47,355 nt of DNA. It comes from Minisyncoccota bacterium. GTDB lineage: Bacteria; Patescibacteriota; Minisyncoccia; Phycocordibacterales; SBAW01. The stretch is from positions 1 to 47,355 of the forward strand of contig JAGOUZ010000003.1 of assembly GCA_018060985.1 (NCBI GenBank), read 5' to 3'. Shown here piece by piece: positions 2,895 through 26,308 of the stretch. Numbering within the stretch: position 1 is the first letter of the stretch; the number at the start of each line of letters is the position of its first letter. Both the position numbers and the translations under genes were made by a program. The notes under the pieces are model-generated. The model was not told where the DNA came from. It ran no database searches and worked only from the letters and a program-made list of their open reading frames with translations.

Positions 2895-5031
2895 TGTTTT
2901 GCGAGGGCGTGAGGCCTTTACGAGACGCAAAGTCAGGATCGATTGCTTTGATAGAAAGGTTGATCCTGCCCTTTTCGTCTATCTCTTTAATCATAACCCG
3001 TACTTTGTCCCCTATCTTGAGGGCGTCGGCTACTTTGTCGATACGGAATGGTGCCACTTCAGATACGTGTACTAAACCCTCAGCATCTTTGCCGGGCCCA
3101 ATCCGTACAAAGGCGCCGAAGTCCATCATGCGGGTAACCTCCCCTTCATACACCTCCCCCGCTTTGTATTCCTTAACTAAGCCTTCGATCATGACTTTTG
3201 CTTTTTGAGCGGAGCCGCCCTGGCCAGTTATATAGATTGAGCCATCGTCTTCTATAGTGATGTCACTTACGCCTGAAACCTCTTTAATGCCATTGATAGT
3301 CTTGCCCCCGCCGCCGATCACGAGACCGATCTGGTCAGGTTTTACTTTCATGGTCAGAATTTCCGGCGCGCGCGAGCTGATGTTCGGGCGAACTGCCGCA
3401 ATTTCTTTTTCTATAACATCAAGAATTTGGTAGCGAGCCTTCTTTGCACCTTCAAGCGCTTCAACTAGTATCGGTACAGATATACCATCGAGTTTAATAT
3501 CAAGCTGAATTGCCGTCACGCCGTTGCGTGTCCCCGCCACTTTAAAGTCCATGCCACCAAACTCATCCTCTGGTCCTTGAATGTCAGTAAGAACGCGGTT
3601 CTCACCGTTGTGAGTCATGAGCCCCATCGCGATGCCGGCAACCGGCGCCTTGATCGGCACGCCGCCGTCCATGAGCGCAAGTGTTGAAGCGCATACCGAG
3701 CCCATTGATGTTGAGCCGTTCGATGCAAAACATTCAGAAACCACGCGAATCGTGTACGGAAATTGTTCTGCAGAAGGAATAACTGCAGAAAGTGCTTTTT
3801 CTGCGAGTGCGCCGTGGCCCGTTGCCCGACGATTAACACCACCCATACGCCCCGTTTCACCGGAAGAAAATGGTGGGAAGTTGTAGTGATGCATGAAGCG
3901 CTTTTTTACATCCTGCTCCTCCATCGTGTCGACAACCTGACTGTCGCCGGGGCCACCTAAAGTGAGCGCTGAAAATACGTGCGTACCACCGCGATAAAAG
4001 ATTCCCGATCCGTGCAATATGTCCGAGATACCTCCTGCCTTAGCAAAGAGTGGACGGATCTGATCAAACGGACGGTCGTCAGGGCGGCGATTGTCTTCTA
4101 TAGCACCGCGATGAATCTCTGCGTCAACTTTATCTTCAAGAAGTCGCTTTGCCATACCGCCGAGCTCAGCAAGTTCTGGAACAGCAGCAACTTTATCTTT
4201 CCACTCGTCTTGTAGTGCGTGGATGGCATCTTTGCCCGCGACACTGCAAAATACTGCAGCAGAAACTTTAGGAGCAATTTCTTTTTCAAACAAAGCGCTC
4301 ATGGCTGCCGGAATTTCCGGCTTTTGTGCGTCGCGTTTTGGCTTGCCCAATTCCTTTATAATCGTTTTTTGCCATGCCAAGATTTTGTCATGCGTTTCAA
4401 CCGCGCGTTTGAAGCCCTCGGCAATTTCGGCTTCGGAGGTTTCCTGTGCGCCCACTTCGATCATGTTAATGGTGGAGTCTTTGCCACAGGCCAAAATGTC
4501 GAGCGTGGTCGCTTCTGATGCGCGTTCAGCATAGGTCGGGTTCACAATAAAATCGCCGCTCCCCTGTTTGCCAATGCGCACGGCAGCTACAGGTCCGTCC
4601 CAAGGAATGTTAGATGTTGCTATAGCAAGCGATGCCGCATTTACTGCGACCATGTCAGGATCATCTTCATCGAGCGAGAGCACCGTAATAACTACTTGGA
4701 TTTCATTGCGAATGTGCGATGGAAATAGCGGACGAATAGTACGATCAACCACGCGGCCAGACAGTATCGCCTGCTCGCTCGGCCTGCCTTCGCGCTTAAT
4801 AAAGCGGCTGCCAAGAATTCTTCCCGCAGCATAAAAACGCTCTTCGTAATCGACAGTAAGCGGAAAGTAATCGATGTCGTCGCGCGTCTTGCTGCTTATT
4901 ACGGCGGTTGCAAGAACCGCGGTGTTTCCATAACGCAGAATGACCGAACCGTTTGCCTGTTCGGCAAGGTCAGTAAACTCAGCGGTCATGGTTTTCCCGC
5001 CGATCTCGAGCGAATAACGTTTGCTTTGCAT
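2854..5031 (-). CDS. pnp: Polyribonucleotide nucleotidyltransferase (PNPase)
   Basis: A 725-residue, full-length PNPase. It carries two RNase PH-like domains (roughly residues 1-150 and 325-470), then a KH domain with the GxxG loop IGGGGKTINGIKEVSG, then an S1 domain (GEVYEGEVTRMMDFGAFVRI) and a short charged tail. It degrades RNA 3' to 5' by phosphorolysis. With RNase Y (12.9 kb) it could form the core of a degradosome. The leader contains the small hairpin GGTCT/AGACC just before the ATG and no Shine-Dalgarno. In other bacteria pnp commonly follows rpsO; here a NYN-domain gene lies between them. Confidence 0.98.
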   Translation of the reverse strand: MQSKRYSLEIGGKTMTAEFTDLAEQANGSVILRYGNTAVLATAVISSKTRDDIDYFPLTVDYEERFYAAGRILGSRFIKREGRPSEQAILSGRVVDRTIRPLFPSHIRNEIQVVITVLSLDEDDPDMVAVNAASLAIATSNIPWDGPVAAVRIGKQGSGDFIVNPTYAERASEATTLDILACGKDSTINMIEVGAQETSEAEIAEGFKRAVETHDKILAWQKTIIKELGKPKRDAQKPEIPAAMSALFEKEIAPKVSAAVFCSVAGKDAIHALQDEWKDKVAAVPELAELGGMAKRLLEDKVDAEIHRGAIEDNRRPDDRPFDQIRPLFAKAGGISDILHGSGIFYRGGTHVFSALTLGGPGDSQVVDTMEEQDVKKRFMHHYNFPPFSSGETGRMGGVNRRATGHGALAEKALSAVIPSAEQFPYTIRVVSECFASNGSTSMGSVCASTLALMDGGVPIKAPVAGIAMGLMTHNGENRVLTDIQGPEDEFGGMDFKVAGTRNGVTAIQLDIKLDGISVPILVEALEGAKKARYQILDVIEKEIAAVRPNISSRAPEILTMKVKPDQIGLVIGGGGKTINGIKEVSGVSDITIEDDGSIYITGQGGSAQKAKVMIEGLVKEYKAGEVYEGEVTRMMDFGAFVRIGPGKDAEGLVHVSEVAPFRIDKVADALKIGDKVRVMIKEIDEKGRINLSIKAIDPDFASRKGLTPSQNNAPTRTERPPRRE

Positions 5032-5986: not shown

Positions 5987-6253
5987 TTACTTCTTTAAAT
6001 CGAGCTTCTTAAGAATCGCATTGTAGCGCTTCTTGTCATTTGCTTCGAGATACTTCAAATGTGAACGGCGATCAGCGACCATCTGGAGAAGTCCACGACG
6101 GCTGTGCTTGTCTTTCAAATGCTTCTTAAGATGACCTGCAAGCTCATCAATACGCTTGGTAAGGATGGCAATTTGCACCTCAGGAGAGCCGGTGTCCTTA
6201 TCGTGGACGCCCACCTCTTTGATCACCTTTTCTTTCTTACGCTTCGTCAGCAT
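5987..6253 (-). CDS. rpsO: 30S ribosomal protein S15
   Basis: An 88-residue S15 starting MLTKRKKEKVIKE, with the family signature region from GSPEVQIA to HSRRGLLQMVADRR. It binds the central domain of 16S rRNA. I chose the ATG at 6251-6253 rather than an in-frame TTG two codons upstream. It gives the usual N-terminus and lies exactly 6 nt after a -10-like TACAGT (6260-6265, minus), as in other apparently leaderless genes here. It is divergent from the Xer recombinase gene. Confidence 0.97.
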   Translation of the reverse strand: MLTKRKKEKVIKEVGVHDKDTGSPEVQIAILTKRIDELAGHLKKHLKDKHSRRGLLQMVADRRSHLKYLEANDKKRYNAILKKLDLKK

Positions 6254-6313
6254 ACGCAAACTGTAGCACAGGCGTGGGTGTTTTGCAAGTGGTGCTATAC
6301 TATTGTGCGACGT

Positions 6314-7225
6314 ATGGCATCTCCTGATATTAAAGGCCTTAAAGTAGAGTTTTTGGAGTATTTAGAGATAGAAAAAGGCCGAAGCGTAAAGACGGTTGAA
6401 AATTATGACCGCTATATCACCCGTTTTTTCATATTTGCGAAGATTTCACATCCCGGCCATATAAAAGAGACTGTCGTGCGTGAGTTTCGTCTCCACTTAA
6501 ACCGCCAAGAAGGGGTTTCGGGGACCATGAAGCATAAGACCCAGAATTATTACCTTATTGCCCTTAGGGCTTTTCTTAAGTTTTTGCGCAAGCGCAATAT
6601 AGAATCCCTTAATCCAGAGCGCATAGAATTAGCTAAGGTGGGAGGGCGTGATCTCGATCTTATCTCCCAAGATGAGTTACATCGCCTTATGCAGAGCCCC
6701 AAAGGCACGGCACTTCAAGCGTTACGGGATAGGGCTATTTTGGAGCTCCTGTTCTCGACAGGTCTCCGTGTATCGGAGCTTTGTGGCCTAGACAGGGACC
6801 TAGACCTCTCCAGGGACGAATTTTCTGTGCGGGGCAAGGGTGAAAAGGTTCGGGTGGTCTTTCTCTCCCTCGCCGCTAAAAAGGCTATAAAAGAATACTT
6901 GGATAAGCGTGGCGACGTTGACGAAGCGCTCTTTGTGCAGATGGGCCGGGCTTCTAAGAGCGCCAAGGACTTACGGCTCACTCCCCGCTCAGTAGAGCGC
7001 CTTATTAAGCAATATGCGACCAAGGCAGGCATTACCCGCAAAGTTACCCCACACGTTATCCGGCACTCCTTTGCTACTGACCTGCTTGAAAACGGGGCTG
7101 ACTTGCGCTCCGTGCAGGCTCTCTTGGGGCATCAAAATATCACCACAACCCAGGTATACACCCACGTTACTGACAAACACCTAAGGGAAGTTCATAAGGC
7201 TTTTCATGGCAAACGTCGTCGGTAG
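6314..7225 (+). CDS. xerC: Tyrosine recombinase, XerC/XerD type
   Basis: A 303-residue protein, the usual Xer length. An N-terminal SAM-like core-binding domain (residues 5-95) is followed by the catalytic domain. Visible catalytic residues are Arg in TGLRVSEL, Lys in the GKGEKVR strand, HxxR in HVIRHSF, His in LLGHQNI and Tyr in TQVYTHV. Xer recombinases resolve chromosome dimers at dif. Many CPR genomes appear to carry a single Xer, so XerC versus XerD is not decided here. The -10 TATACT lies 12 nt before the ATG. Upstream in-frame sequence is open but overlaps rpsO and looks non-coding. Confidence 0.95.
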   Translation: MASPDIKGLKVEFLEYLEIEKGRSVKTVENYDRYITRFFIFAKISHPGHIKETVVREFRLHLNRQEGVSGTMKHKTQNYYLIALRAFLKFLRKRNIESLNPERIELAKVGGRDLDLISQDELHRLMQSPKGTALQALRDRAILELLFSTGLRVSELCGLDRDLDLSRDEFSVRGKGEKVRVVFLSLAAKKAIKEYLDKRGDVDEALFVQMGRASKSAKDLRLTPRSVERLIKQYATKAGITRKVTPHVIRHSFATDLLENGADLRSVQALLGHQNITTTQVYTHVTDKHLREVHKAFHGKRRR

Positions 7226-17439: not shown

Positions 17440-18627
17440 TTATTCTACTGTCTTTTCTTTTGCCTCGCCAGTCTCAGTTGCTTCTGCAACGGTTTCGCCT
17501 TTAACAGACTGGATGTCGATGCGCCAGCCGGTGAGCTTTGCAGCAAGGCGGACGTTCTGTCCACCGCGGCCGATAGCAAGACTCTGCTGGTCCTCGGCTA
17601 CTTTAATAGTTGCTTTGTGTTCTGTCTCATCAAGTTCTACTGAGGCAACACGTGCAGGGGAAAGTGCCTCTTCGATAAAGTGTTTTGTATCTTCAGACCA
17701 CTCTACGATGTCGATCTTCTCGCCACCGAGTTCGGAGGTAACGGTCGAGACGCGTACACCGCGCTGGCCAACGAGTGAACCAACCGGGTCAACGTGTGCA
17801 TCGGTTGATGCAACAGCAACTTTGGAGCGGGAACCAGCTTCGCGGGCGATTGCTTTAAAGACAACGGTGCCGTGTGCAGCTTCGGGCGCTTCCATTTCAA
17901 ACAATTTTGCGAGGAAGTTAGGGTGCGCGCGGGAGAGGCGGAGGTAAATGCCGCGAGGAGACTCTTCTACTTGGTAGAGGAGCGCGCGAATGCGCTCACC
18001 CTGGCGGTAGCGTTCGCCTGGAATTTGCTCTTCGTACGGCAAGATGCCGGTTGCGCGGCCAAGGTCGATATAAATATTGCCACGCTCCATGCGCTGCACC
18101 GTGCCAGACACGATGTCGCCCTGACGTTTACCAAACTCGGCAACGACAGAAACCTTTTCTGCCTCGCGGATCTTCTGGATAATTACTTGTTTTGCGGTTT
18201 GTGCAGCAATGCGGCCGTAATCGCCCTTAATTTCAAGCGGGAAGACAAGCTCCTGGCCCACCTCGGTGTCACGCTTTATAAGCTTCGCATCGGCAAGAAG
18301 GATGTGTTGCTCTGGGTTAAAGCGGGGAAGCTCAGCAATGGGGTTGCCCTCTGCATCAAGTTCAGGTTCTTTTTTTTCTTCTTCCTCTTCACCCTCTTCA
18401 ACAAAACGAACCGTGCTTTCATCCACAACTTCTTTTACCTGCACAAACTCCGGCGTACCGGTGTCCATGTCGAGGCGTGCGCGGATTATCTGCCCCTTTT
18501 TTGCATATTCTTTCTTATAGGCGGTCGCAAGGGCAGCCTCAATAGCCTCGATGACTTTTTCACGCGGAATACCACGCTCCTCTTCGAGCTCGCCCAAGAC
18601 CGAATTCATTACTTTTAGGTCAAACAT
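17440..18627 (-). CDS. nusA: Transcription termination/antitermination factor NusA
   Basis: A 395-residue NusA. An N-terminal RNA polymerase-binding domain is followed by S1 (GDIVSGTVQRMERGNIYIDLG) and two KH domains (DPVGSLVGQRGVRVSTVTSELG and SLAIGRGGQNVRLAAKLTGW). The N-terminal domain contains an acidic insertion of roughly 30 residues (EEGEEEEEKKEPELDAEG and following) that I do not expect in canonical NusA. The C-terminal acidic repeats of proteobacterial NusA are absent. The leader contains a terminator-like hairpin, suggesting autoregulation. Confidence 0.97.
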   Translation of the reverse strand: MFDLKVMNSVLGELEEERGIPREKVIEAIEAALATAYKKEYAKKGQIIRARLDMDTGTPEFVQVKEVVDESTVRFVEEGEEEEEKKEPELDAEGNPIAELPRFNPEQHILLADAKLIKRDTEVGQELVFPLEIKGDYGRIAAQTAKQVIIQKIREAEKVSVVAEFGKRQGDIVSGTVQRMERGNIYIDLGRATGILPYEEQIPGERYRQGERIRALLYQVEESPRGIYLRLSRAHPNFLAKLFEMEAPEAAHGTVVFKAIAREAGSRSKVAVASTDAHVDPVGSLVGQRGVRVSTVTSELGGEKIDIVEWSEDTKHFIEEALSPARVASVELDETEHKATIKVAEDQQSLAIGRGGQNVRLAAKLTGWRIDIQSVKGETVAEATETGEAKEKTVE

Positions 18628-18648
18628 GTGTGTTTTCTGTAGCCTTTT

Positions 18649-18676
18649 AAAAACCGAACCGCCCCTCGGGGCGGTT
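18649..18676 (-). promoter_or_regulatory. Terminator-like hairpin (attenuator) in the nusA leader
   Basis: In the nusA 5' UTR, AACCGCCCC pairs with GGGGCGGTT (18657-18676), followed by CGGTTTTT (minus strand). It lies between the promoter (18689-18717) and the ATG (18627), so it would have to be read through for nusA expression. Confidence 0.65.
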
Positions 18677-18688
18677 ACAGATACTCAT

Positions 18689-18717
18689 ACTATACTCTTC
18701 TGTTACAATAGAGTCAA
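18689..18717 (-). promoter_or_regulatory. Promoter of nusA, overlapping a divergent -10
   Basis: On the minus strand TTGACT (18712-18717), 17 bp, then TATAGT (18689-18694). A plus-strand TATACT (18691-18696) overlaps the same -10, and TACAAT (18704-18709) lies 8 nt before the divergent ATG at 18718. Confidence 0.75.
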
Positions 18718-20385
18718 ATGCAGGTGGATGACGTGGGGTTAGCAGATTTTTTGCTCTCATCGGGCGCTATATCGAGGCGCAGCTTAGACGAGGCGCTCTC
18801 ACAGTATGATGGGGGGCGAGAGTTGGGGAGTGCCCTAGTATCTCATGGGTACATAACCGACGACGATCTGCGCCGCGCTATTGCGGGCGTATTGGGGCTC
18901 CCATTCGTTACACTTAAGCGCGAAGACATAGATCCGGCCGCACTGTTGATAATCCCTGAGCCAATTGCGCGTAAGCACAACCTATTGGGTTACCGCATAA
19001 CAGGCGACAAGCTTGAGGTGGCACTGTTAAACCCCGACGATGCTCAGGTACTACAGAGCCTCAACCTTACCCACCCACCTTTACTGCGGGTTACTACCGA
19101 ACACACTATAAAACACGGTCTTTTGTACTACCAAAAGCTGCTTAAAGAGCAGTTTAGCAAGGTGTTAGAGAGTAGCGGCCACGCAGTAGAGGCGTTTTTG
19201 CACCATGTACTCCTTTCGAACGCCAATGGCGTACATATAGACCTAGGAACGGCAGGAACTATTGTGCGCTATCGCCTAGGGAGCGCGCTCCATGAGGCTA
19301 TGCGCTTACCGGTACACATAGGAGGTGCCCTTACGGAACGGTTAAAGCAGCTCGCCAAGCTTATGCCTACCTCGAGCACCCTCCAGGAAGGGCGATTTAA
19401 ATTTGAAAAGGACGGCGAGCGTCATGCGGTACACGTTTCCGCCCTCCCTACACTTGAGGGCGAGCGACTGGTTCTGCGTATAGCTCGCGAACATGAGGGT
19501 CATAGCGGATTTGCCCTACCCAGCTTGGGCCTCCATGGGGAAGCGCTTGAGCAGGTGCATAAGTTCGTTAATGAACGCGCTGGCCTGATACTCGTTGCAG
19601 GGCTAGAGGGCGGCGGCAAGACAACGGCGCTCTATACACTCATAGATCAGCTGCCCAGCCACTCACTTTCTATCGCTACCGTAGAGAAAAAGATTGAACA
19701 TAAGATCCCGCACGTAGCACAAACGCAAATTAAGCCCCAGCTAGGCCTTGGTGGAGCCGCAGCCCTACGTGCGGTACTGCGTACTAACCCAGACGTTGTA
19801 CTTATAGACTCGCTTTCTGATGCAGAAATGACTTCCTTGACCCTACGGGCGGCAAACATGGGCGTATTGGTTATGGCGGGCATAGAAGCGCCCTCGGCTA
19901 TTATGGCGATTGACCAGCTGCGCGCATGGGGTGCACAGCCTCAGCTCCTTGCCGCAACGCTGCGGGGCGTCATAGGAGTAGACGTTGCTGGGCGCCTTTG
20001 CCCACACGAGAGGGAAGACTACAGGCTCTCCCGGGCCGAAAGTGCCCCGCTAGAGCCCTTGGCCGACTTTGGCCGCGTGCTCAGTACTCTTAAAGAAGAA
20101 GGGGTGTTAGAGCAGGATAAGCCTTGGAAAGAGCTCCTATTCCCTAGGGCTACGGCCTGCGCTGAGTGCCAGGGGGGCTATATAGGTATAGTGGGGGTAC
20201 AGGAAGTGCTCCCTATAAACCAGACCATTAAAGATTTGATACTACAGGGCGCCCCTATACAAGATATAGAGGGGGTCGCAAGGAGGGAGGGGATGCTCAC
20301 TATAATAGAAGAGGGCTTGGTTAAGGCGGCCGAGGGAATCACTAGTATAGAGGAGGTTTTTCGCCTAGCTTCTGATAGGCAATAG
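18718..20385 (+). CDS. PilB/GspE-like secretion ATPase with degenerate motifs
   Basis: A 555-residue protein with the layout of a type IV pilus assembly ATPase. An N-terminal MshEN-like domain (residues 5-145) is followed by the ATPase core. The P-loop is GLEGGGKTTALY where PilB usually has GPTGSGKTTTLY, so GKT is kept. The Walker B region reads DVVLIDSLSDAEM where GEIRDxET is usual, losing the catalytic Glu and Arg. The Asp box is HIDLGTAGTIVRYR. Cysteines remain as RLCPH and CAECQGG. It may be a structural or weakly active paralogue. No other pilus gene is in the window. Confidence 0.85.
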   Translation: MQVDDVGLADFLLSSGAISRRSLDEALSQYDGGRELGSALVSHGYITDDDLRRAIAGVLGLPFVTLKREDIDPAALLIIPEPIARKHNLLGYRITGDKLEVALLNPDDAQVLQSLNLTHPPLLRVTTEHTIKHGLLYYQKLLKEQFSKVLESSGHAVEAFLHHVLLSNANGVHIDLGTAGTIVRYRLGSALHEAMRLPVHIGGALTERLKQLAKLMPTSSTLQEGRFKFEKDGERHAVHVSALPTLEGERLVLRIAREHEGHSGFALPSLGLHGEALEQVHKFVNERAGLILVAGLEGGGKTTALYTLIDQLPSHSLSIATVEKKIEHKIPHVAQTQIKPQLGLGGAAALRAVLRTNPDVVLIDSLSDAEMTSLTLRAANMGVLVMAGIEAPSAIMAIDQLRAWGAQPQLLAATLRGVIGVDVAGRLCPHEREDYRLSRAESAPLEPLADFGRVLSTLKEEGVLEQDKPWKELLFPRATACAECQGGYIGIVGVQEVLPINQTIKDLILQGAPIQDIEGVARREGMLTIIEEGLVKAAEGITSIEEVFRLASDRQ

Positions 20386-20444
20386 GCATCTCGGCGAAAT
20401 ATCTATATTTTAAGCCATATTCTGGCGACACATAGCCCATATAC

Positions 20445-20473
20445 TTGACAAATGTCAAGGATGGGAGTATAAT
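20445..20473 (+). promoter_or_regulatory. Perfect consensus promoter with overlapping operator-like palindrome
   Basis: TTGACA (20445-20450), exactly 17 bp, then TATAAT (20468-20473). The inverted repeat TTGACA-AA-TGTCAA (20445-20458) begins at the -35 and could bind a repressor dimer. It is the best match to the sigma-70 consensus seen in the window and faces the accessory island. Confidence 0.85.
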
Positions 20474-20479
20474 ATACGG

Positions 20480-20619
20480 GTACGCTTGAAATAGGTAAGG
20501 GTAAGCAGCTTTTAGAGGAGGCGGCACACCAGATCACACTATATATAGCCCTTGGGCTCTATATATGAGGCGATTGGGGAGCACTTCTTTAAGAGGAGTA
20601 CTGCCCAGTCGCCTTTTTT
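20480..20619 (+). ncRNA. Putative ~140-nt non-coding RNA or attenuated leader of the island
   Basis: It would begin about 7 nt after the consensus promoter. There is no convincing reading frame. A strong Shine-Dalgarno-like AGAGGAGG near 20512-20522 has no start codon behind it. An AU-rich hairpin pairs ATATATAG (20541-20548) with CTATATAT (20559-20566). A long terminator hairpin (20568-20614) pairs AGGCGATTGGG with CCCAGTCGCCT, contains an inner 7-bp stem and ends in six T. It may be a stand-alone sRNA or a leader that gates transcription into the genes that follow. I could not match it to SRP, 6S or RNase P RNA. Confidence 0.6.
20568..20619 (+). terminator. Intrinsic terminator of the putative ncRNA
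   Basis: An 11-bp outer stem with one G-T pair, an inner stem, then TTTTTT at 20614-20619. Between here and 20866 lie two more hairpins (GACAT...ATGTC around 20632-20672, and CGCTACGAC...GTCGTTGAGCG) and no convincing gene. Confidence 0.85.
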
Positions 20620-20866
20620 AGTCCAGTTGGGACATATTGTGAAGAAGAGCTTCTTCTCAACAATGTCCTCGCTACGACAGAATGTGTAGTCGTTGAGCGA
20701 AGATGGTCTCTGACAACAGAATAGCAATTAGGAACAAAGTGAAAAAACTGCTCGTAAGAGCGATCACCATGTTGTTCTTCGTTGCCGGACTGACCCCACC
20801 TGGGTTGGTACGGTACGAAGCACCGCATACCGCGTGTGCTGTAAGTTCCAACAGGAGGGAAGTACA

Positions 20867-21142
20867 ATGTTCAATCTCTTTGTTCGTTTTTTCGGTCATG
20901 GTCTGGTCCAGCTCGTGCTCGGCGTCACGCTTGTCGTCGTCGGTGTCAACGTCGCGTTTGCGGCGGAAGACGAAAACCCGACGACGATCGAAGAAGCGAT
21001 GGAGCGTCTTGCCAAAGAACGGCTCGCCGCCTCCGCCGACGCATTAAGAGATCTTTCGTTCTGCAAGAAGTTCCTCGGGCCCGAAGGAAACTGCTCGCAC
21101 GAGCAGGAAGCTTTTCTGGAGGCTATCGAACAGCAGCAGTGA
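20867..21142 (+). CDS. Small secreted protein, island gene 1
   Basis: A 91-residue protein starting at the ATG that follows ACAGGAGGG by 8 nt. Residues 1-32 form a signal peptide (FVRFFGHGLVQLVLGVTLVV then GVNVAFA, with cleavage expected before AEDENP). The mature part is about 60 residues, acidic, helical and with two cysteines (LSFCKKFLGPEGNCSHEQ). No family is recognised. It is the first gene after the ncRNA terminator. The stop is followed within 8 nt by the first double-hairpin module. Confidence 0.7.
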   Translation: MFNLFVRFFGHGLVQLVLGVTLVVVGVNVAFAAEDENPTTIEEAMERLAKERLAASADALRDLSFCKKFLGPEGNCSHEQEAFLEAIEQQQ

Positions 21143-21150
21143 AGTATCTC

Positions 21151-21210
21151 GGCGGTCGCAAATGACCGCCGCCCATTCAAGTTTTTGGACAGTCGAAAAT
21201 TTGAACGGGC
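21151..21210 (+). promoter_or_regulatory. Double-hairpin module 1 (between island genes 1 and 2)
   Basis: Hairpin 1: GGCGGTC (21151-21157) with GACCGCC (21164-21170). Hairpin 2: GCCC-A-TTCAA (21171-21180) with TTGAA-C-GGGC (21201-21210), a single A/C mismatch, and an inner TTTT/AAAA. No T tract follows either hairpin. Confidence 0.75.
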
Positions 21211-21246
21211 CACAAGGCTCGAATGTTCACACAAAAGGAGGGCCAA

Positions 21247-21537
21247 ATGGCCACGTTCAACGAATTGGAAGAAAGGGCGGTCGCTGAAATCGCGACTGCA
21301 CTCAAGAAGAAATCGCCGCAGATGTCAGACGGACGTGCTGCAAAGCGTGCTCGTGAAGACCTCTCCTTTGCCATTGAACAGGCAAAGAAAATAGTGGCGG
21401 TCAAACTGGAAGTGGAGCGCAGGGCTGGGGGAAAATTTTCCCCAGAACAAATTTTGTTCTTTTTCGATACCCGTGGGGTTTCGAAGGAAACCTCTACTGC
21501 GCTTGCGGTGGAGATGATCGAGGAGTTGCGCGGGTGA
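21247..21537 (+). CDS. Small helical protein, island gene 2 (paralogue of 15396)
   Basis: A 96-residue protein with the ribosome binding site AAAGGAGGG 5 nt before the ATG. It is predicted helical, with no signal peptide. Residues around RAAKRAREDLSFAIEQA and LFFFDTRGVSKE align with the 71-residue protein at 15396, so a small gene family is present at two separate loci. It is 25 residues longer, with a longer N-terminus and central loop. Function unknown. Confidence 0.7.
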   Translation: MATFNELEERAVAEIATALKKKSPQMSDGRAAKRAREDLSFAIEQAKKIVAVKLEVERRAGGKFSPEQILFFFDTRGVSKETSTALAVEMIEELRG

Positions 21538-21548
21538 CTGCGCAGCTC

Positions 21549-21623
21549 GGGTTTTGAGCGAAACCCTTACAAAATAAATCGCTCCCTATCCAAACGCTTA
21601 AATACGTTGAGCGTTTAGATAGG
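21549..21623 (+). promoter_or_regulatory. Double-hairpin module 2 (between island genes 2 and 3)
   Basis: Hairpin 1: GGGTTT (21549-21554) with AAACCC (21561-21566). Hairpin 2: CCTATC-C-AAACGCT (21585-21598) with AGCGTTT-A-GATAGG (21610-21623), a 13-bp stem with one C/A mismatch. Confidence 0.75.
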
Positions 21624-21658
21624 ACTACAAGCGGTGTGGTCCAGATACGGAGGAGAGG

Positions 21659-21871
21659 ATGGCATTGTTCGTTGATGAAGAGCCGCTGTCGTCGAAAGAC
21701 GATGCAGCTACGTTCTTCGACCGAGCGGCGGATGCGGCTCGGCTCGGAATGCTCAAAGAGGCGATCAATTTCGCCAATTTGGGAACCGCGCTCCTGCTCA
21801 GGCAGGAAGAGCGCGCCGGGAATGGCCCGCAAGTCGTCGTGTGGCCCGAAAGAAAGATCACGCAAGCGTGA
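21659..21871 (+). CDS. Small helical protein, island gene 3
   Basis: A 70-residue protein with a ribosome binding site (CGGAGGAGAGG) just before the ATG. The middle (DRAADAARLGMLKEAINFAN) is strongly helical and resembles a single TPR-like hairpin, but one repeat is too little to assign a fold. No signal peptide or membrane helix is seen. It lies between modules 2 and 3. Confidence 0.65.
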   Translation: MALFVDEEPLSSKDDAATFFDRAADAARLGMLKEAINFANLGTALLLRQEERAGNGPQVVVWPERKITQA

Positions 21872-21875
21872 ATGA

Positions 21876-21949
21876 GGGGCGTCTCTTAGTAGACGCCCCC
21901 TGACTTTAGCTTCTAAGGTGACCTCTACACTTTGGAAGCTCAAGTCAGG
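21876..21949 (+). promoter_or_regulatory. Double-hairpin module 3 (between island genes 3 and 4)
   Basis: Hairpin 1: GGGGCGTCT (21876-21884) with AGACGCCCC (21891-21899). Hairpin 2: CCTGACTT-T-AGCTTC (21899-21913) with GAAGCT-C-AAGTCAGG (21935-21949), a single T/C mismatch. The two hairpins share base 21899. Confidence 0.78.
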
Positions 21950-21986
21950 AACAATAGTGTTTCTGAAATTCGTTGAGGAGGTGACC

Positions 21987-22406
21987 GTGCGTCAGTTTAC
22001 CGATATGAACGGTCATCTCTTCGAAGAGGTGACCTTGGGCGTGTGCCTCGTTGAGTATCACGGATACCTGACCTGGCAGAAGGCAGCAGAGCAGGTGCGC
22101 ACGCATCAGCCTTGCACCCATCGCCCGGCCGCACGGCGCCTCCATGCGGAGGTTGCAAAGCGGTTTGGAAAGTGTGCGTCGGCAGTGAAGTTCTACACTG
22201 CCGTGCACTCGCCCCTGGACATGTTCCATGGGGTGGACTGCTTCTTTGAATTCCGTGGAGTAATGGTGACTATCGACGTTACCATCAACCCAGGAAAGAA
22301 CTCTGGGCGGGCAGATGTGGTCGTCCAGGCGGACGACTTCGAAAACCTACCCGTGTTGGCGGCACGCATCAGCGGCGTGTTTGCCGAAAAGATCCGGAGA
22401 GGGTGA
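21987..22406 (+). CDS. Unknown protein, island gene 4
   Basis: A 139-residue protein. I chose the GTG at 21987 because a strong Shine-Dalgarno (GAGGAGGTGA) precedes it; an ATG at 21918 in frame falls inside hairpin 2 of module 3. The C-terminal half (MFHGVDCFFEFRGVMVTIDV followed by TINPGK) has the D...E...D.T..K spacing reminiscent of PD-(D/E)XK nucleases, but this is only suggestive. Three cysteines are present. The next gene starts 4 nt after its stop, the only tightly coupled pair in the island. Confidence 0.65.
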   Translation: MRQFTDMNGHLFEEVTLGVCLVEYHGYLTWQKAAEQVRTHQPCTHRPAARRLHAEVAKRFGKCASAVKFYTAVHSPLDMFHGVDCFFEFRGVMVTIDVTINPGKNSGRADVVVQADDFENLPVLAARISGVFAEKIRRG

Positions 22407-22410
22407 GCCA

Positions 22411-22662
22411 ATGAGTACCATCAAAAGCCCGCCTCGACCGATGCACTACTTCTTCCGATGTGCTACCTGCGATACCTACCTCGTGTCGGAAGAAACTGCA
22501 AAAAAGTTCCTTACGAGTAGACTACAGAAAAGGCTCGACGAGAGTATCCGCGAGGGAGCACACGGAGCAATCCTGACCTTCCATAATGGATGCCCGAACT
22601 GCACGCCTGACAACAAGGCGGCAGAGATCAAACTGTCGGCGCTTATGCCGAAAATAAACTGA
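22411..22662 (+). CDS. Small zinc-ribbon-like protein, island gene 5
   Basis: An 83-residue protein. Two CxxC pairs, FRCATCDTY near residue 17 and NGCPNCTPD near residue 67, are spaced as in a zinc ribbon interrupted by a helical insert (ETAKKFLTSRLQKRLDESIR). A ribosome binding site overlaps the stop of gene 4 (GGAGAGGGTGA). The ribbon suggests nucleic-acid or protein binding. Function unknown. Confidence 0.7.
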   Translation: MSTIKSPPRPMHYFFRCATCDTYLVSEETAKKFLTSRLQKRLDESIREGAHGAILTFHNGCPNCTPDNKAAEIKLSALMPKIN

Positions 22663-22723
22663 GGCGTCTCAAGTAGACGTCTCTCCCTTAAAGCACTTAA
22701 AAATTATTTGAGTGTTTCAAGGG
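22661..22723 (+). promoter_or_regulatory. Double-hairpin module 4 (between island genes 5 and 6)
   Basis: Hairpin 1: GAGGCGTCT (22661-22669) with AGACGTCTC (22675-22683). Hairpin 2: CCCTT-A-AAGCACT (22685-22697) with AGTGTTT-C-AAGGG (22711-22723), one A/C mismatch. Hairpin 1 begins inside the stop codon region of gene 5. Confidence 0.75.
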
Positions 22724-22728
22724 GACCT

Positions 22729-23100
22729 ATGGTGGGGACCAAGTCGAGCATGGTGCTCGGCGTATTGAAAGAGGACGACTTGAACATGCAGGAACACGTT
22801 TTGGTTCTGAATGGCAACGGATTCATGGCACTCCAGCGGATCGCCGCTCCGGAGCGCGAGGGCGGTCTCGACATCCTCCGTCCGGTGTCGGCCGGCAAGA
22901 CCCAGGAGGTCGTGGATGAGCTCAGCCACACCATCGACGGCATCGTTGCCAGCAAGAACAAGGACGGACGTGCCGACTTCGCCAAGATGCGGACGCCGGC
23001 CGGTTTCTTCCGGAGCACGTTGGGCTACGTCGCCTCGAGTTCGGGCGGCGGACAGTGGGGCACCACGAACCGGCGTGCCGCCGGTCGCGGCTGGAGCTAG
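22729..23100 (+). CDS. Unknown protein, island gene 6
   Basis: 123 residues from the ATG at 22729; in-frame ATGs at 22750 and 22786 are also possible, and the last, preceded by AAAGAGGA, would give 104 residues. The protein has no membrane helix. It ends in a Gly/Ser/Arg-rich tail (GYVASSSGGGQWGTTNRRAA) that looks flexible. Part of it (LDILRPVSAGKTQEVVDELS) is helical. No family is recognised. Base composition is visibly GC-rich compared with nearby housekeeping genes. Confidence 0.62.
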   Translation: MVGTKSSMVLGVLKEDDLNMQEHVLVLNGNGFMALQRIAAPEREGGLDILRPVSAGKTQEVVDELSHTIDGIVASKNKDGRADFAKMRTPAGFFRSTLGYVASSSGGGQWGTTNRRAAGRGWS

Positions 23101-23148
23101 CGGGGCTCAGGGAGATACAACAACTCCTTAACAATTTGTTGTTCAACA

Positions 23149-23220
23149 GGTGGCAACGTAAGTTGCCGCCCCTTTCAAACACTTGATCCATCCTCTATAC
23201 GATCGAGTGTTTAAAAGGGG
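23149..23220 (+). promoter_or_regulatory. Double-hairpin module 5 (between island genes 6 and 7)
   Basis: Hairpin 1: GGTGGCAAC (23149-23157) with GTTGCCGCC (23162-23170). Hairpin 2: CCCCTTT-C-AAACACTTGATC (23169-23188) with GATCGAGTGTTT-A-AAAGGGG (23201-23220). The two share bases 23169-23170, so they cannot both be fully formed. AGTAG follows directly, as in modules 6 and 7. Confidence 0.82.
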
Positions 23221-23266
23221 AGTAGCGCGATGCGAAACCCATTCACCCAAAAAAAGGAGAAGTGAC

Positions 23267-23581
23267 ATGACCGGAACTGCGCTGATGTCGCCCAAAGACC
23301 AGTTCATGCTGGGGTGGGTGGCCGCTGCACATCTGCAAGGCAGAGGTGACCGTAAATATCCCGACGTGTTCTCTTGGAGCGCGAGGGGGTGGTTCGGCGG
23401 AGGCCTCTCCTCCATGAACGATGCCGATGAGGCGTGTCGGAATCCTGACGAGGTGTGGAAGCGCGTGTCGGCGGCAGACGAGATCGTCCTCAAAGCCGAC
23501 AAAGGGCAACACCAGCACTACGTGAACAACGTCCTTCTGTGGAAAGTGGCATTCAACGAGTGGCCTCCACAGCCACACTAG
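23267..23581 (+). CDS. Unknown protein, island gene 7
   Basis: A 104-residue protein with ribosome binding site AAAAGGAGAAGTG before the ATG; an upstream in-frame extension runs through module 5 and is rejected. It is rich in Trp, Gly and His (WSARGWFGGGLSSM and KADKGQHQHYVNNV). It has no signal peptide or membrane helix. Function unknown. Confidence 0.65.
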   Translation: MTGTALMSPKDQFMLGWVAAAHLQGRGDRKYPDVFSWSARGWFGGGLSSMNDADEACRNPDEVWKRVSAADEIVLKADKGQHQHYVNNVLLWKVAFNEWPPQPH

Positions 23582-23597
23582 TCCGATAAGGACTTCT

Positions 23598-23659
23598 GCT
23601 CGTGAGTTTACTCGCGAGCCCTTTCAAGCTCTTGAAGCAATTCGAGACTTTGAAAGGGG
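23598..23659 (+). promoter_or_regulatory. Double-hairpin module 6 (between island genes 7 and 8)
   Basis: Hairpin 1: GCTCGTGAG (23598-23606) with CTCGCGAGC (23611-23619). Hairpin 2: CCCTTTCAA (23619-23627) with TTGAAAGGG (23650-23658), continuing inward with one C/C mismatch. The 29 nt that follow are nearly identical to those after module 5 (AGTAGC...GCGAAACCCATTCACCCA). Confidence 0.82.
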
Positions 23660-23705
23660 AGTAGCAAGACGCGAAACCCATTCACCCACAGCATGGGAGA
23701 ATAAA

Positions 23706-23933
23706 ATGGAAATGTTTGCATGGGGAATGATATTAGGAAACTTCTTTCCAATCATTCTCGTTATCCTGGTCGTTCTCCTTGTCGTGGCTGGCCTCGTGGT
23801 CGCCAAGACAGGAACAGTCATTCTCACCTTTCGTGGATGGAGAGGGGAAGCGGTTCTTCTTGGCGGAGCGGTCCGTCGCGCGTTCTTCTGGACGCTGATG
23901 TTCGTCATGGTGGCACTTATCGCGCTGCCGTGA
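23706..23933 (+). CDS. Small membrane protein, island gene 8
   Basis: A 75-residue protein with two hydrophobic segments (FFPIILVILVVLLVVAGLVV and AFFWTLMFVMVALIAL) joined by a basic loop with three arginines. The ribosome binding site is GGGAG, 6 nt before the ATG. It is the last coding gene of the island and is followed by module 7. Membrane location is certain in outline; function unknown. Confidence 0.72.
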   Translation: MEMFAWGMILGNFFPIILVILVVLLVVAGLVVAKTGTVILTFRGWRGEAVLLGGAVRRAFFWTLMFVMVALIALP

Positions 23934-23938
23934 CGAAT

Positions 23939-24006
23939 GGGGTCGGCGAACGTCGACCCCTCGTTTCAAGCGCTTTAGGTCCAAGGCCTAGAGAATTTGA
24001 AAGGGG
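23939..24006 (+). promoter_or_regulatory. Double-hairpin module 7 (after island gene 8)
   Basis: Hairpin 1: GGGGTCG (23939-23945) with CGACCCC (23954-23960). Hairpin 2: CCCC and TTTCAA (23957-23969) with TTGAAA and GGGG (23997-24006), with inner TAGG/CCTA. CCCC at 23957-23960 belongs to both hairpins. AGTAG follows. Confidence 0.8.
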
Positions 24007-24279
24007 AGTAGTTCCCTTGTTCTCACGCAGCCCCCCTCCTAAACGCCAGCGGGATAGGAGAGTGAGAGGCGCGGAGGCGCGTGGCGGTCGCTTAGTAACT
24101 GGACCAGGTAACTGCGTACCAGTGAACAGCGGCCGCCCGCTGCCTATTAACAGTTCTTTGTTTTGCGTGTGGTGTTTTTTGTGGCCGCTAGTGTGCTGTA
24201 AACGGATCCTCTAATGCACTCAACTTCGGTTGAATGCATCCGCTTGCAGCACTGTGGCGGTCACGGCCAATAAGCAAAC
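24007..24279 (+). other. Structured non-coding tail of the island (possible ncRNA)
   Basis: No plausible gene. It contains a 10-bp stem GGCGGTCGCT (24083-24092) with AGCGGCCGCC (24128-24137) enclosing ACTGG/CCAGT (24098-24102 with 24119-24123). A UUCG-capped hairpin is built from TCAAC and GTTGA (24214-24239). A terminator follows at 24280. It is preceded by module 7 just as the coding genes are, so it may be a non-coding member of the array. Confidence 0.45.
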
Positions 24280-24307
24280 GCCGCTTCCGAAAGGAGGCGG
24301 CTTTTTG
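24280..24307 (+). terminator. Terminator closing the accessory island
   Basis: GCCGCTTCC (24280-24288) pairs with GGAGGCGGC (24293-24301) around a GAAA loop, followed by TTTTT. Confidence 0.92.
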
Positions 24308-24343
24308 CGTATCCAAATAATCAAAAAATGATATAGTTGCGGA

Positions 24344-25102
24344 GTGAAGAAACGTCTTGTTGTCGGTAACTGGAAAATGTATGTCGAAAATCCGCAGGAG
24401 GCGCATGCCTACGCGCTCCAGCTTAGGCGCAAAGTGCGCGGCCTCTCGGGTGTAGAAGTGTGGGTTGCTCCTCCGTACCCATTTGTGCCGGGCGTTGCCA
24501 AGGTGCTCGAGAGCTCGCCGGTACATGTGGGCGCTCAGGATGTCGCCCCCTTTGAAAATATTCCGCACACTGGAGCAGTTTCTGCAAAGATGCTGAAGAA
24601 CTCTGGCGCGCTGTTTGTGATTGTCGGCCACTCGGAGCGCCGCGCACAAGGGGAGAGCGAGCAGGATGTGCGTGCCGCTTTAGAGCGCGCTGCTGAAGCG
24701 GGCCTTGCGCCGATACTTTGCATTGGCGAGACCGAGCGCGAGAAAGACGGCGAACATGTAGCGGTGCTTGAGCGTCAGCTTACAACTGCGCTCGACAAGC
24801 TCGCTCCCGCGGCACTTAAAAAGTTGGTCGTGGCGTACGAACCCGTGTGGGCGATAGGAAAGCATGGTGTTGACGCTATCGACCCTGCAGGACTTGAAGA
24901 GATGGTTATTTTTATTAAGAAAGTGCTCACTGAACTTACCGACCGCACTCGCGCGCTTAAAGTACCGATACTCTACGGAGGCTCGGTTGAAGCGGATAAT
25001 GCCGCGGCGCTGCTACAGGGCGGAGGTATTAACGGATTTTTGGTGGGGCACGCAAGTACTAAGTTAGAAACCTTTTTCCCAATAATACAGGCATGCAAAT
25101 AA
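24344..25102 (+). CDS. tpiA: Triosephosphate isomerase
   Basis: A 252-residue TIM starting with GTG. Catalytic residues are visible: Lys in VGNWKMY, His in IVGHSERR and Glu in VAYEPVWAIG. The phosphate-binding YGGSVEADNAAALL and GFLVGHAS are also present. It interconverts dihydroxyacetone phosphate and glyceraldehyde-3-phosphate in glycolysis. TATAGT (24332-24337) is exactly 6 nt before the GTG with no Shine-Dalgarno. Its partner pgk follows. Confidence 0.98.
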   Translation: MKKRLVVGNWKMYVENPQEAHAYALQLRRKVRGLSGVEVWVAPPYPFVPGVAKVLESSPVHVGAQDVAPFENIPHTGAVSAKMLKNSGALFVIVGHSERRAQGESEQDVRAALERAAEAGLAPILCIGETEREKDGEHVAVLERQLTTALDKLAPAALKKLVVAYEPVWAIGKHGVDAIDPAGLEEMVIFIKKVLTELTDRTRALKVPILYGGSVEADNAAALLQGGGINGFLVGHASTKLETFFPIIQACK

Positions 25103-25132
25103 GGCTACGTAAAAGCAAGTTCTCAGGAACGC

Positions 25133-25158
25133 GGAACATTTCCTGGTAGAAATGTTCC
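25133..25158 (+). repeat. Perfect inverted repeat between tpiA and pgk
   Basis: GGAACATTTC (25133-25142) and GAAATGTTCC (25149-25158) with a 6-nt loop. There is no T tract, so it could be an operator or an RNA hairpin. Confidence 0.6.
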
Positions 25159-25228
25159 TAAGTTTCGCGCCGTCGCGCTCACTACATTCCTTCAAACCTC
25201 TTTTTCTCCGCCGCGATATACTACCTAC

Positions 25229-26308
25229 ATGCAACTAAAGACTGTCAGAGATGCAGATGTTACCGGAAAGCGCGTGTTGGTACGTGTGGATTTTAATGTA
25301 CCGCTTAAGGATGGCCTGGTTGTAGACGATGCGCGCATTAAGGCGGCGATCCCCACAATTAATTTACTTAAAGAAAAAGGTGCGGCACAAATTTTATTGC
25401 TCACCCACCTCGGCCGCCCAGACGGCAAAGTGGTAGAAGAACTTCGTACTGCCCCTATTGCTAAAAAGTTAACCGAGCTGGGAGTAACTGGTGTAGAGAT
25501 GCTCGAGAATATTCGCTTTGAAGCTGGGGAAGAAACAAATGACCCTGCGCTCGCACAACAACTTGCAAGTATGGCCGATGTATTTGTAAACGATGCCTTT
25601 GCAGCAGCACATCGCGCTCATGCCTCGACCGTGGGTATTACCAAACTGCTGCCAAGCTACGCGGGGTTGTTGATGGAGGGCGAAGTAGAAAAACTTTCAG
25701 CAGCGCTTACGCCGCCCCAAGGCGCCATTGCCATAATTGGTGGCGCTAAATTTGAAACCAAGCAGCCTTTGATAGAAAAATTGCTCACTATGTACAGCAA
25801 AGTGCTTTTAGGTGGCGCGCTTGGTAACGATGTTATTAAGGCGCGCGGACACGCTGTCGGTGCCTCGATGGTCTCTGTGGTACCAGTGCCGGTGCCCCTT
25901 GCGATTAACGACAGCCTCGTAGTGGCTGTCGACGCTGTAGTGGGCGAGCCGAACAGTAACTCCGAGCGCACGGCACTCATTAACGATATCCGTGCCGTTG
26001 AGGGCATTGTAGATATTGGCCCCAACACGGCGGCTGCCTGGGCGCGGGAGATTGGCCAGGCACCCTTTGTGCTATGGAATGGCCCTATGGGCGTGTATGA
26101 GCGCGGATTTACTCGTGGCACCGATGCGCTCGCTCAAGCACTTACGACTGCAACAACACCTGCAGTGGTTGGCGGCGGCGATACTATTGCTGCAGTTTCA
26201 AAATTTTCTTTTGATCACTCGCGCGTATTCCTTTCGACCGGAGGGGGAGCGATGCTGGAATTTTTAACTAGCGGGACCTTGCCAGCATTGGAGCCGCTTA
26301 AAAAATAA
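25229..26308 (+). CDS. pgk: Phosphoglycerate kinase
   Basis: 359 residues, shorter than the usual 390-400 but with all core motifs: VLVRVDFNVPLKDG, LTHLGRPDG, FVNDAFAAAHRAH, IGGAKFETK, LWNGPMGVYE and VGGGDTIAAV. It makes ATP from 1,3-bisphosphoglycerate. TATACT (25217-25222) lies exactly 6 nt before the ATG. tpiA and pgk are consecutive but each appears to have its own promoter. Confidence 0.98.
   Translation: MQLKTVRDADVTGKRVLVRVDFNVPLKDGLVVDDARIKAAIPTINLLKEKGAAQILLLTHLGRPDGKVVEELRTAPIAKKLTELGVTGVEMLENIRFEAGEETNDPALAQQLASMADVFVNDAFAAAHRAHASTVGITKLLPSYAGLLMEGEVEKLSAALTPPQGAIAIIGGAKFETKQPLIEKLLTMYSKVLLGGALGNDVIKARGHAVGASMVSVVPVPVPLAINDSLVVAVDAVVGEPNSNSERTALINDIRAVEGIVDIGPNTAAAWAREIGQAPFVLWNGPMGVYERGFTRGTDALAQALTTATTPAVVGGGDTIAAVSKFSFDHSRVFLSTGGGAMLEFLTSGTLPALEPLKK

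Follow-up and report, generated by a model that had tools for sequence, protein, structure and literature searches.

A small-gene island of a Patescibacterium with covarying double hairpins at its junctions, probably an rRNA-style antiterminated polycistron

Hammerhead ribozymes between genes of prophages cleave in vitro and in vivo and have been proposed to process long transcripts (Perreault et al. 2011, PMC3088659), and boxA controls the protein genes suhB and a ParE-like toxin gene in Enterobacteria (PMC5725501). Here we describe a chromosomal locus that recalls both, an island of eight small genes in a stretch of 47,355 nucleotides (the window) from a Minisyncoccota bacterium (assembly GCA_018060985.1, contig JAGOUZ010000003.1, positions 1 to 47,355). 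The window makes up the opening 47 kb of a contig of 115.6 kb, and the genome of 722 kb belongs to a parasitic-type, ultra-small bacterium of the Patescibacteria (candidate phyla radiation, CPR), genus Ca. Adlerbacteria. Flanked by a pilB-like T2SSE ATPase gene (18718-20385) on one side and tpiA (24344-25102) on the other, with all its features on the plus strand, the island is probably an rRNA-style antiterminated polycistron of exchangeable small genes, RNA-processed or end-protected at its junctions. A preliminary description, made from the sequence alone, began the island at its first gene (20867), which is too late: the unit begins at a promoter at 20445, and a leader RNA precedes that gene.

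Seven double-hairpin modules had been proposed, and all seven fold as such at the places given: module 1 (M1; 21151-21210), module 2 (21549-21623), module 3 (21876-21949), module 4 (22661-22724), module 5 (23149-23220), module 6 (23598-23659) and module 7 (23939-24006). Folded as pieces of 76-105 nt and compared with 200 dinucleotide shuffles each, the modules have minimum free energies of -32.7 to -46.4 kcal/mol and z-scores of -3.95 to -7.4, with module 3 the strongest and 0/200 shuffles as stable for each. A GC-corrected regression scan of the whole window placed 31 of 373 segments in the island at least 3 standard deviations below the expected fold energy, versus 18 of 4354 elsewhere; the island holds 31 of the 49 strongly stable segments, yet makes up 8% of the sequence. 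The 110 nt after island stop codons with a module have z-scores of -3.0 to -6.1, and the coupled g4/g5 junction, correctly described as having no module, has -1.3. For comparison, the 3' flanks of 36 ordinary window genes have a median z of -1.8, with 10 below -3. A single stem is unexceptional in this genome; seven consecutive ones of one conserved type are exceptional.

Each module had been read as a GC hairpin followed by an imperfect one, which stands for all seven, except that the first element of module 2 is better drawn as an H-type pseudoknot (GGGTTT-GAGCGA-AACCC...TCGCTC, 21549-21584), followed by the hairpin CCTATC...GATAGG (21585-21623). This pseudoknot also takes the place of the first hairpin at one G045 junction (L041, about 4800-4840). 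Pairing was also said to be kept while sequence differs; covariation is indeed strong, but the second (B) hairpins share sequence as well, with the consensus YYTTTCAAGC.CTT...GAG..TTTGAAAGGGG and a conserved internal mismatch. Because MAFFT placed M2 and M3 wrongly when given module pieces of unequal extent, a covariance model (R1) built from five modules was used to gather the modules of other genomes. Modules 1, 4, 5, 6 and 7 are supported by fold, R1 and covariation, module 2 by fold and R1, and module 3, which R1 misses, by its fold; the B arm of module 7 is nearest to those of G007 and G045. Across 15 modules from seven genomes of the genus, 88.8% of cells are paired and 15 of 24 pairs show compensatory change, with 0/500 shuffles as good on all measures and a sharp collapse when the partner is slid by one column, values somewhat inflated by the use of a model of the same fold to find and align the modules of other genomes.

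The start of the unit has the architecture of an rRNA leader. A promoter (TTGACA, 17-base spacer, TATAAT; 20445-20473), with a near-consensus counterpart ahead of the leader in almost every homologous locus, is followed by leader 1 (20510-20619), aligned with five relatives, which combines a conserved TTTAGAGGAGG motif with an intrinsic terminator (GGCGATTGGGGAG...CTGCCCAGTCGCC-TTTTTT, 20569-20619); leader 1 is among the window's strongest folds, and its exact core is found in two other genomes. Next come a hairpin GGACAT...AATGTCCT (GGACAT/ATGTCC, 20630-20669), a motif also present upstream of the leader in several other loci, a boxA-like antitermination element TCTCTGACAACAGAATAG (20707-20724) and a 60-nt hairpin domain, leader 2 (20770-20829). 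The leader element TCTTTGACAACTGAATAG also precedes the genome's own 16S (C7:50450) and 23S (C7:35519) genes, each time after a promoter and a terminator hairpin, and almost every homologous leader keeps the boxA-like motif. We infer from sequence and position that this element is a boxA, and its place in a leader, after a strong promoter, is that expected of an rRNA-type unit. At the far end, a strongly folding 3' RNA element (GCTGTAAACGGATCC...GCATCCGCTTGCAGC..TGGCGGTCA, 24181-24263), aligned with G001, G007 and G045, precedes the intrinsic terminator that closes the unit (24276-24306). Leader and 3' element are kept in relatives despite different genes in between. Elsewhere in the same genome, a boxA-like leader (G000:C7:27014, L067) precedes the gene of a secreted, peptidoglycan-binding or S-layer-like protein, which suggests that rRNA-type control extends to at least one protein gene beyond the island.

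A second covariance model (R3), built from eight leaders and spanning 20707-20829 in the window, places the leader in at least 15 of 35 genomes of the genus and at least 18 of 397 of the order, with E-values as low as 9.5e-19, 12 of the 18 belonging to ten other genera. Both counts are minima, because scoring was limited to 8 or 12 candidates in each genome. Across 20 loci, the leader hairpin has 95.9% of cells paired and compensatory change in 10 of 23 pairs, with 0/500 shuffles as good. Downstream of R3 leaders lie small-gene arrays with structured gaps and an almost complete turnover of genes. Of 52 stop codons chosen there and at the window junctions, 28 are followed by folds with z below -3. 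R1 finds modules in six other genomes of the genus and, under strict filters, in 0/25 genomes outside it; a further model (R2) finds single modules in small-gene arrays of other families, most clearly in G376 and G080. The covariance search of related genomes that the preliminary description had proposed has therefore yielded both covariation and a link to small-gene arrays. R2 matches in G101, G238 and G268 were doubtful on inspection, and matches in G013:C11 were set aside, as the DNA that holds them, around a transposase-like gene, is rich in repeats. There (L093, 2200-4980), dozens of similar short hairpins (GCAGACGAT...GTCTGCA) surround that gene (MSRIIGIRHRTKM...) and look like a separate structured repeat system. 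No relevant match to the Rfam 15 covariance models was found at E<=1 in 18000-26000 for leader or module, the leader RNA has no matching Rfam family, and both families appear to be new and undescribed.

In sister arrays, ribozymes occupy the position of the double hairpins. Rfam models detect a type III hammerhead in one junction gap of each of seven arrays (G080, G136, G390, G083, G005, G016 and G006), with E-values of 7e-4 to 1.4e-5 for six of them and 0.012 for the seventh. Scanning for the core motif gives two more, one immediately ahead of the boxA leader of G136 and the other ~100 nt upstream of the G018 promoter. All of these lie on the sense strand and keep the catalytic core. We propose that a strong promoter and an intrinsic terminator are followed by a boxA leader that would recruit Nus factors, and that RNA polymerase, thus made resistant to termination, would transcribe the array and the 3' element in one piece. 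The cargo would consist of small unrelated genes with quick turnover between species inside a kept RNA frame, and the double hairpin after each stop codon, or after the coupled pair, would mark the cistron border. Most likely the transcript is cut at the modules and the hairpins shield the new 3' ends, which would leave separate stable mRNAs, each with its own Shine-Dalgarno sequence; in homologous arrays a self-cleaving type III hammerhead would do the same junction task. Among the three readings offered in the preliminary description, an RNA-processed polycistron gains strong indirect support from the boxA leader, the covarying junctions and the sense-strand hammerheads of related arrays; a cassette array as a mechanism and a phage-derived block are unsupported.

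Several observations weigh against this proposal. In this genome many stop codons are followed by a single hairpin, the boxA was picked out by its likeness to rRNA leaders, and near-matches to it elsewhere in the genome are as frequent as those to a reversed-pattern control. The hammerheads score below the Rfam gathering cut-off (31-41 versus 48.5 bits), and the window has no hammerhead at E<=1 in 18000-26000 and no core motif. Cleavage at the window's double hairpins is suggested by analogy with sister hammerheads at a like position, and the inflation of the covariation values belongs on the same side.

The modules could instead be terminators or attenuators that make expression decrease from gene to gene, with the boxA antitermination complex overriding them. 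Stable hairpins do follow the stop codons, a true intrinsic terminator immediately precedes boxA, an arrangement shared with the rRNA leaders of this genome, and antitermination would need something to override; however, none of the seven modules is followed by the T-run (U-tract in the transcript) of an intrinsic terminator, the conserved sequence and mismatch of the B hairpin are needless for termination, and self-cleaving ribozymes sit at the same place in sister arrays. We consider this explanation unlikely.

The genes between the conserved borders change rapidly. The pilB-tpiA island is common to six genomes with nearly all genes different; modules lie in the pilB-tpiA gap of G001, G007, G012, G045 and G049, and those of G042 at another site. 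Only g4-g5 have recognisable homologues, both in G012, and comparison at the species level shows array genes that differ within borders that are kept. This cassette-like turnover is the part of the preliminary cassette-array idea that survives, and it is also what an integron-like system would produce, in which gene plus double hairpin form a cassette and the hairpin in single-stranded DNA is the site of a tyrosine recombinase. Near-identical modules within a genome (three copies in G007, two in G049) and a shared upstream promoter resembling the integron Pc fit such a system too, and covariation is equally expected of folded DNA sites. The G-U pairs, however, point to RNA: they fill 45 cells against 12 for A-C, an excess that comes mostly from two nearly invariant pairs, is expected if the transcribed strand folds, and contrasts with attC, which folds on the other strand. 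Moreover, no RYYYAAC/GTTRRRY core boxes were seen by eye in the 15 modules (B consensus TTTCAAGC...TTTGAAAGGGG), the integron integrase model TIGR02249 exceeds its cut-off in 0/24 array genomes, where only Xer-like enzymes of a kind present in 14/14 control genomes occur, and hammerheads take the hairpins' place in sister arrays. An integron-like mechanism is thus quite improbable. The window itself encodes an Xer-like tyrosine recombinase at 6104-7225, ~14 kb upstream of the island, which is probably a housekeeping enzyme, as its kind occurs across array genomes.

Several sister loci have features of their own. The G042 array carries a long near-identical repeat with a tRNA T-arm-like hairpin (GCGACGGG TTCAATC CCCGTCGC), which twice stands in for hairpin A (L042, 2890-2970 and 4040-4135). 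In G012, a secreted small protein follows the short island (L039, 3300-3551), and a second double-hairpin junction, on C1 (L096, 1706-3200), lies before a glycine-rich surface protein. The array of G309 (L116) has the leader, then a RecJ/DHH-type protein and a DEAH RNA helicase (HrpA/HrpB-like), with genes larger than usual.

Small orphan genes behind a strong promoter might also be the surviving early genes of a defective prophage, satellite or other mobile element, as the preliminary description had suggested with its phage-derived block; hammerheads between genes are known from prophages (PMC3088659), and G042, G018 and G043 carry arrays at other chromosomal sites. Against this, the window genes have no PHROGs matches, the leader patterns are unmatched in viral contigs and their 5' part in plasmids, no integrase or structural gene adjoins the array, and six diverged species share the same pilB-tpiA site, so that we regard a mobile-element origin as a remote prospect.

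A role of the modules in translation is also conceivable, for instance if they switched the following ribosome-binding site between hidden and exposed states. A third hairpin overlapping hairpin B at the latter's GGGG end (as in GGGGTTGCA..TGTGATCCC) suggests alternative folds in relatives, occurring in G007, G012, G045, G042 and G018 (L037 2535-2560, L039 2855-2880, L041 5580-5610, L042 3610-3640 and L094 3640-3665), and the two hairpins share bases in several modules, which would also permit alternative folds. A general third hairpin is unsupported in the window, where it is absent from M4-M6, and most Shine-Dalgarno sequences of the window lie 20-40 nt past the module and are unpaired in it. 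A translational role is accordingly very hard to credit.

We next consider the contents of the island. The eight open reading frames (ORFs) are g1 (20867-21142; 91 aa, with an N-terminal signal or membrane segment), g2 (21247-21537; 96 aa, orphan), g3 (21659-21871; 70 aa, orphan), g4 (21987-22406; 139 aa), g5 (22411-22662; 83 aa, zinc-ribbon-like CxxC...CxxC), g6 (22729-23100; up to 123 aa, start at 22729 or 22786), g7 (23267-23581; 104 aa, orphan) and g8 (23706-23933; 75 aa, a membrane protein). A strong Shine-Dalgarno sequence had been noted after the modules; all eight genes have one, weakest for g6 with its uncertain start. Codon usage scores the gene's own frame best in 7/8 genes, with g1 nearly tying with an antisense frame. 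For g4 (53% identical to the first gene of the G012 island) and g5, divergence from the G012 homologues is mainly at third codon positions (0.57-0.61 versus 0.29-0.36). Judged on these sequence signals, the eight ORFs are credible genes. None matched a Pfam, PHROGs or PADLOC family, in line with their first characterization as unrelated orphans. In g4, a stretch conserved with G012 (HG.D.FFEF.G..VTIDVT.NP.K) could be the core of a PD-(D/E)XK-type nuclease. The models that AlphaFold gave for g4 and g7 are of low confidence (predicted local distance difference test, pLDDT, 49 and 46), too low to support a fold comparison.

The cargo of sister arrays is more informative. AAA-Csx3 occurs in the G043 array (1.3e-44), Csx3-type AAA proteins in those of G166 and G083, Csx20-like proteins in G390 and G212, a DHH_CorA protein in G390 (4.5e-35) and RNA polymerase alpha C-terminal domains in G080 (3.5e-13) and, weakly, G001; arrays from more than one genus have several cargo families in common. 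Ring-nuclease activity of Csx20 is confirmed (PMC12409355), and Cas10 (PF22335) was found in 0/24 array genomes. Families that degrade cyclic oligoadenylate in genomes without Cas10 suggest that part of the cargo may act against nucleotide-signalled defence, making counter-defence cargo in some arrays plausible from sequence; the window's own eight genes have no match to such families. More tentatively, and as a possibility that we hold well short of even confidence, these loci may form a new class of chromosomal Patescibacteria array, boxA-antiterminated, filled with rapidly exchanged small genes, cut by double hairpins or hammerheads, and carrying cargo for host interaction or counter-defence, including cyclic oligoadenylate degradation in cells lacking type III CRISPR (clustered regularly interspaced short palindromic repeats).

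If correct, our reading would mean that in these minimal, host-dependent bacteria certain loci are dedicated to fast-changing small proteins and highly transcribed, with rRNA-type control serving protein genes and natural ribozymes separating them. The leader and the double hairpin, both apparently new as conserved RNA elements, would then mark many unannotated small genes and offer a testable route to the accessory, and perhaps anti-defence, proteins of Patescibacteria, a group whose dealings with host cells are still poorly understood.

A search of the literature on boxA, hammerheads or small-gene arrays in Patescibacteria found nothing on this layout, and comparison must be made with systems from elsewhere. 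Integron cassette arrays likewise place promoterless small genes behind one promoter, with folded imperfect hairpins between them and fast turnover, but the present locus has no integron integrase or attC boxes and adds a conserved RNA leader and 3' element. Intercistronic hairpins of the puf type and of repetitive extragenic palindromic sequences and bacterial interspersed mosaic elements (REP/BIME) can stabilise the upstream mRNA; here, by contrast, a two-hairpin module of conserved sequence occupies all junctions but one of a single operon. rRNA operons share the strong promoter, early terminator, boxA, structured leader and conserved 3' structure, and differ in that the product here is a set of small mRNAs and not rRNA. 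The boxA-controlled suhB and ParE-like toxin genes (PMC5725501) show boxA at work on protein genes, including a toxin-antitoxin gene, though as single genes without arrays or junction elements. Ancillary ring nucleases of type III CRISPR loci (Csx20, Csx3; PMC12409355) have family members in sister arrays, but these genomes have no Cas10 and the window array has none of the families. The closest precedent in mechanism is the prophage system of hammerhead-separated genes (Perreault et al. 2011, PMC3088659), in which type III hammerheads lie between single genes or short blocks, the genes are variable and include an anti-restriction gene, and processing into single-gene mRNAs was proposed. That system lies near integrases, with no reported boxA leader or double-hairpin modules, whereas the arrays described here are chromosomal in Patescibacteria and some genomes, including that of the window, use only double hairpins.

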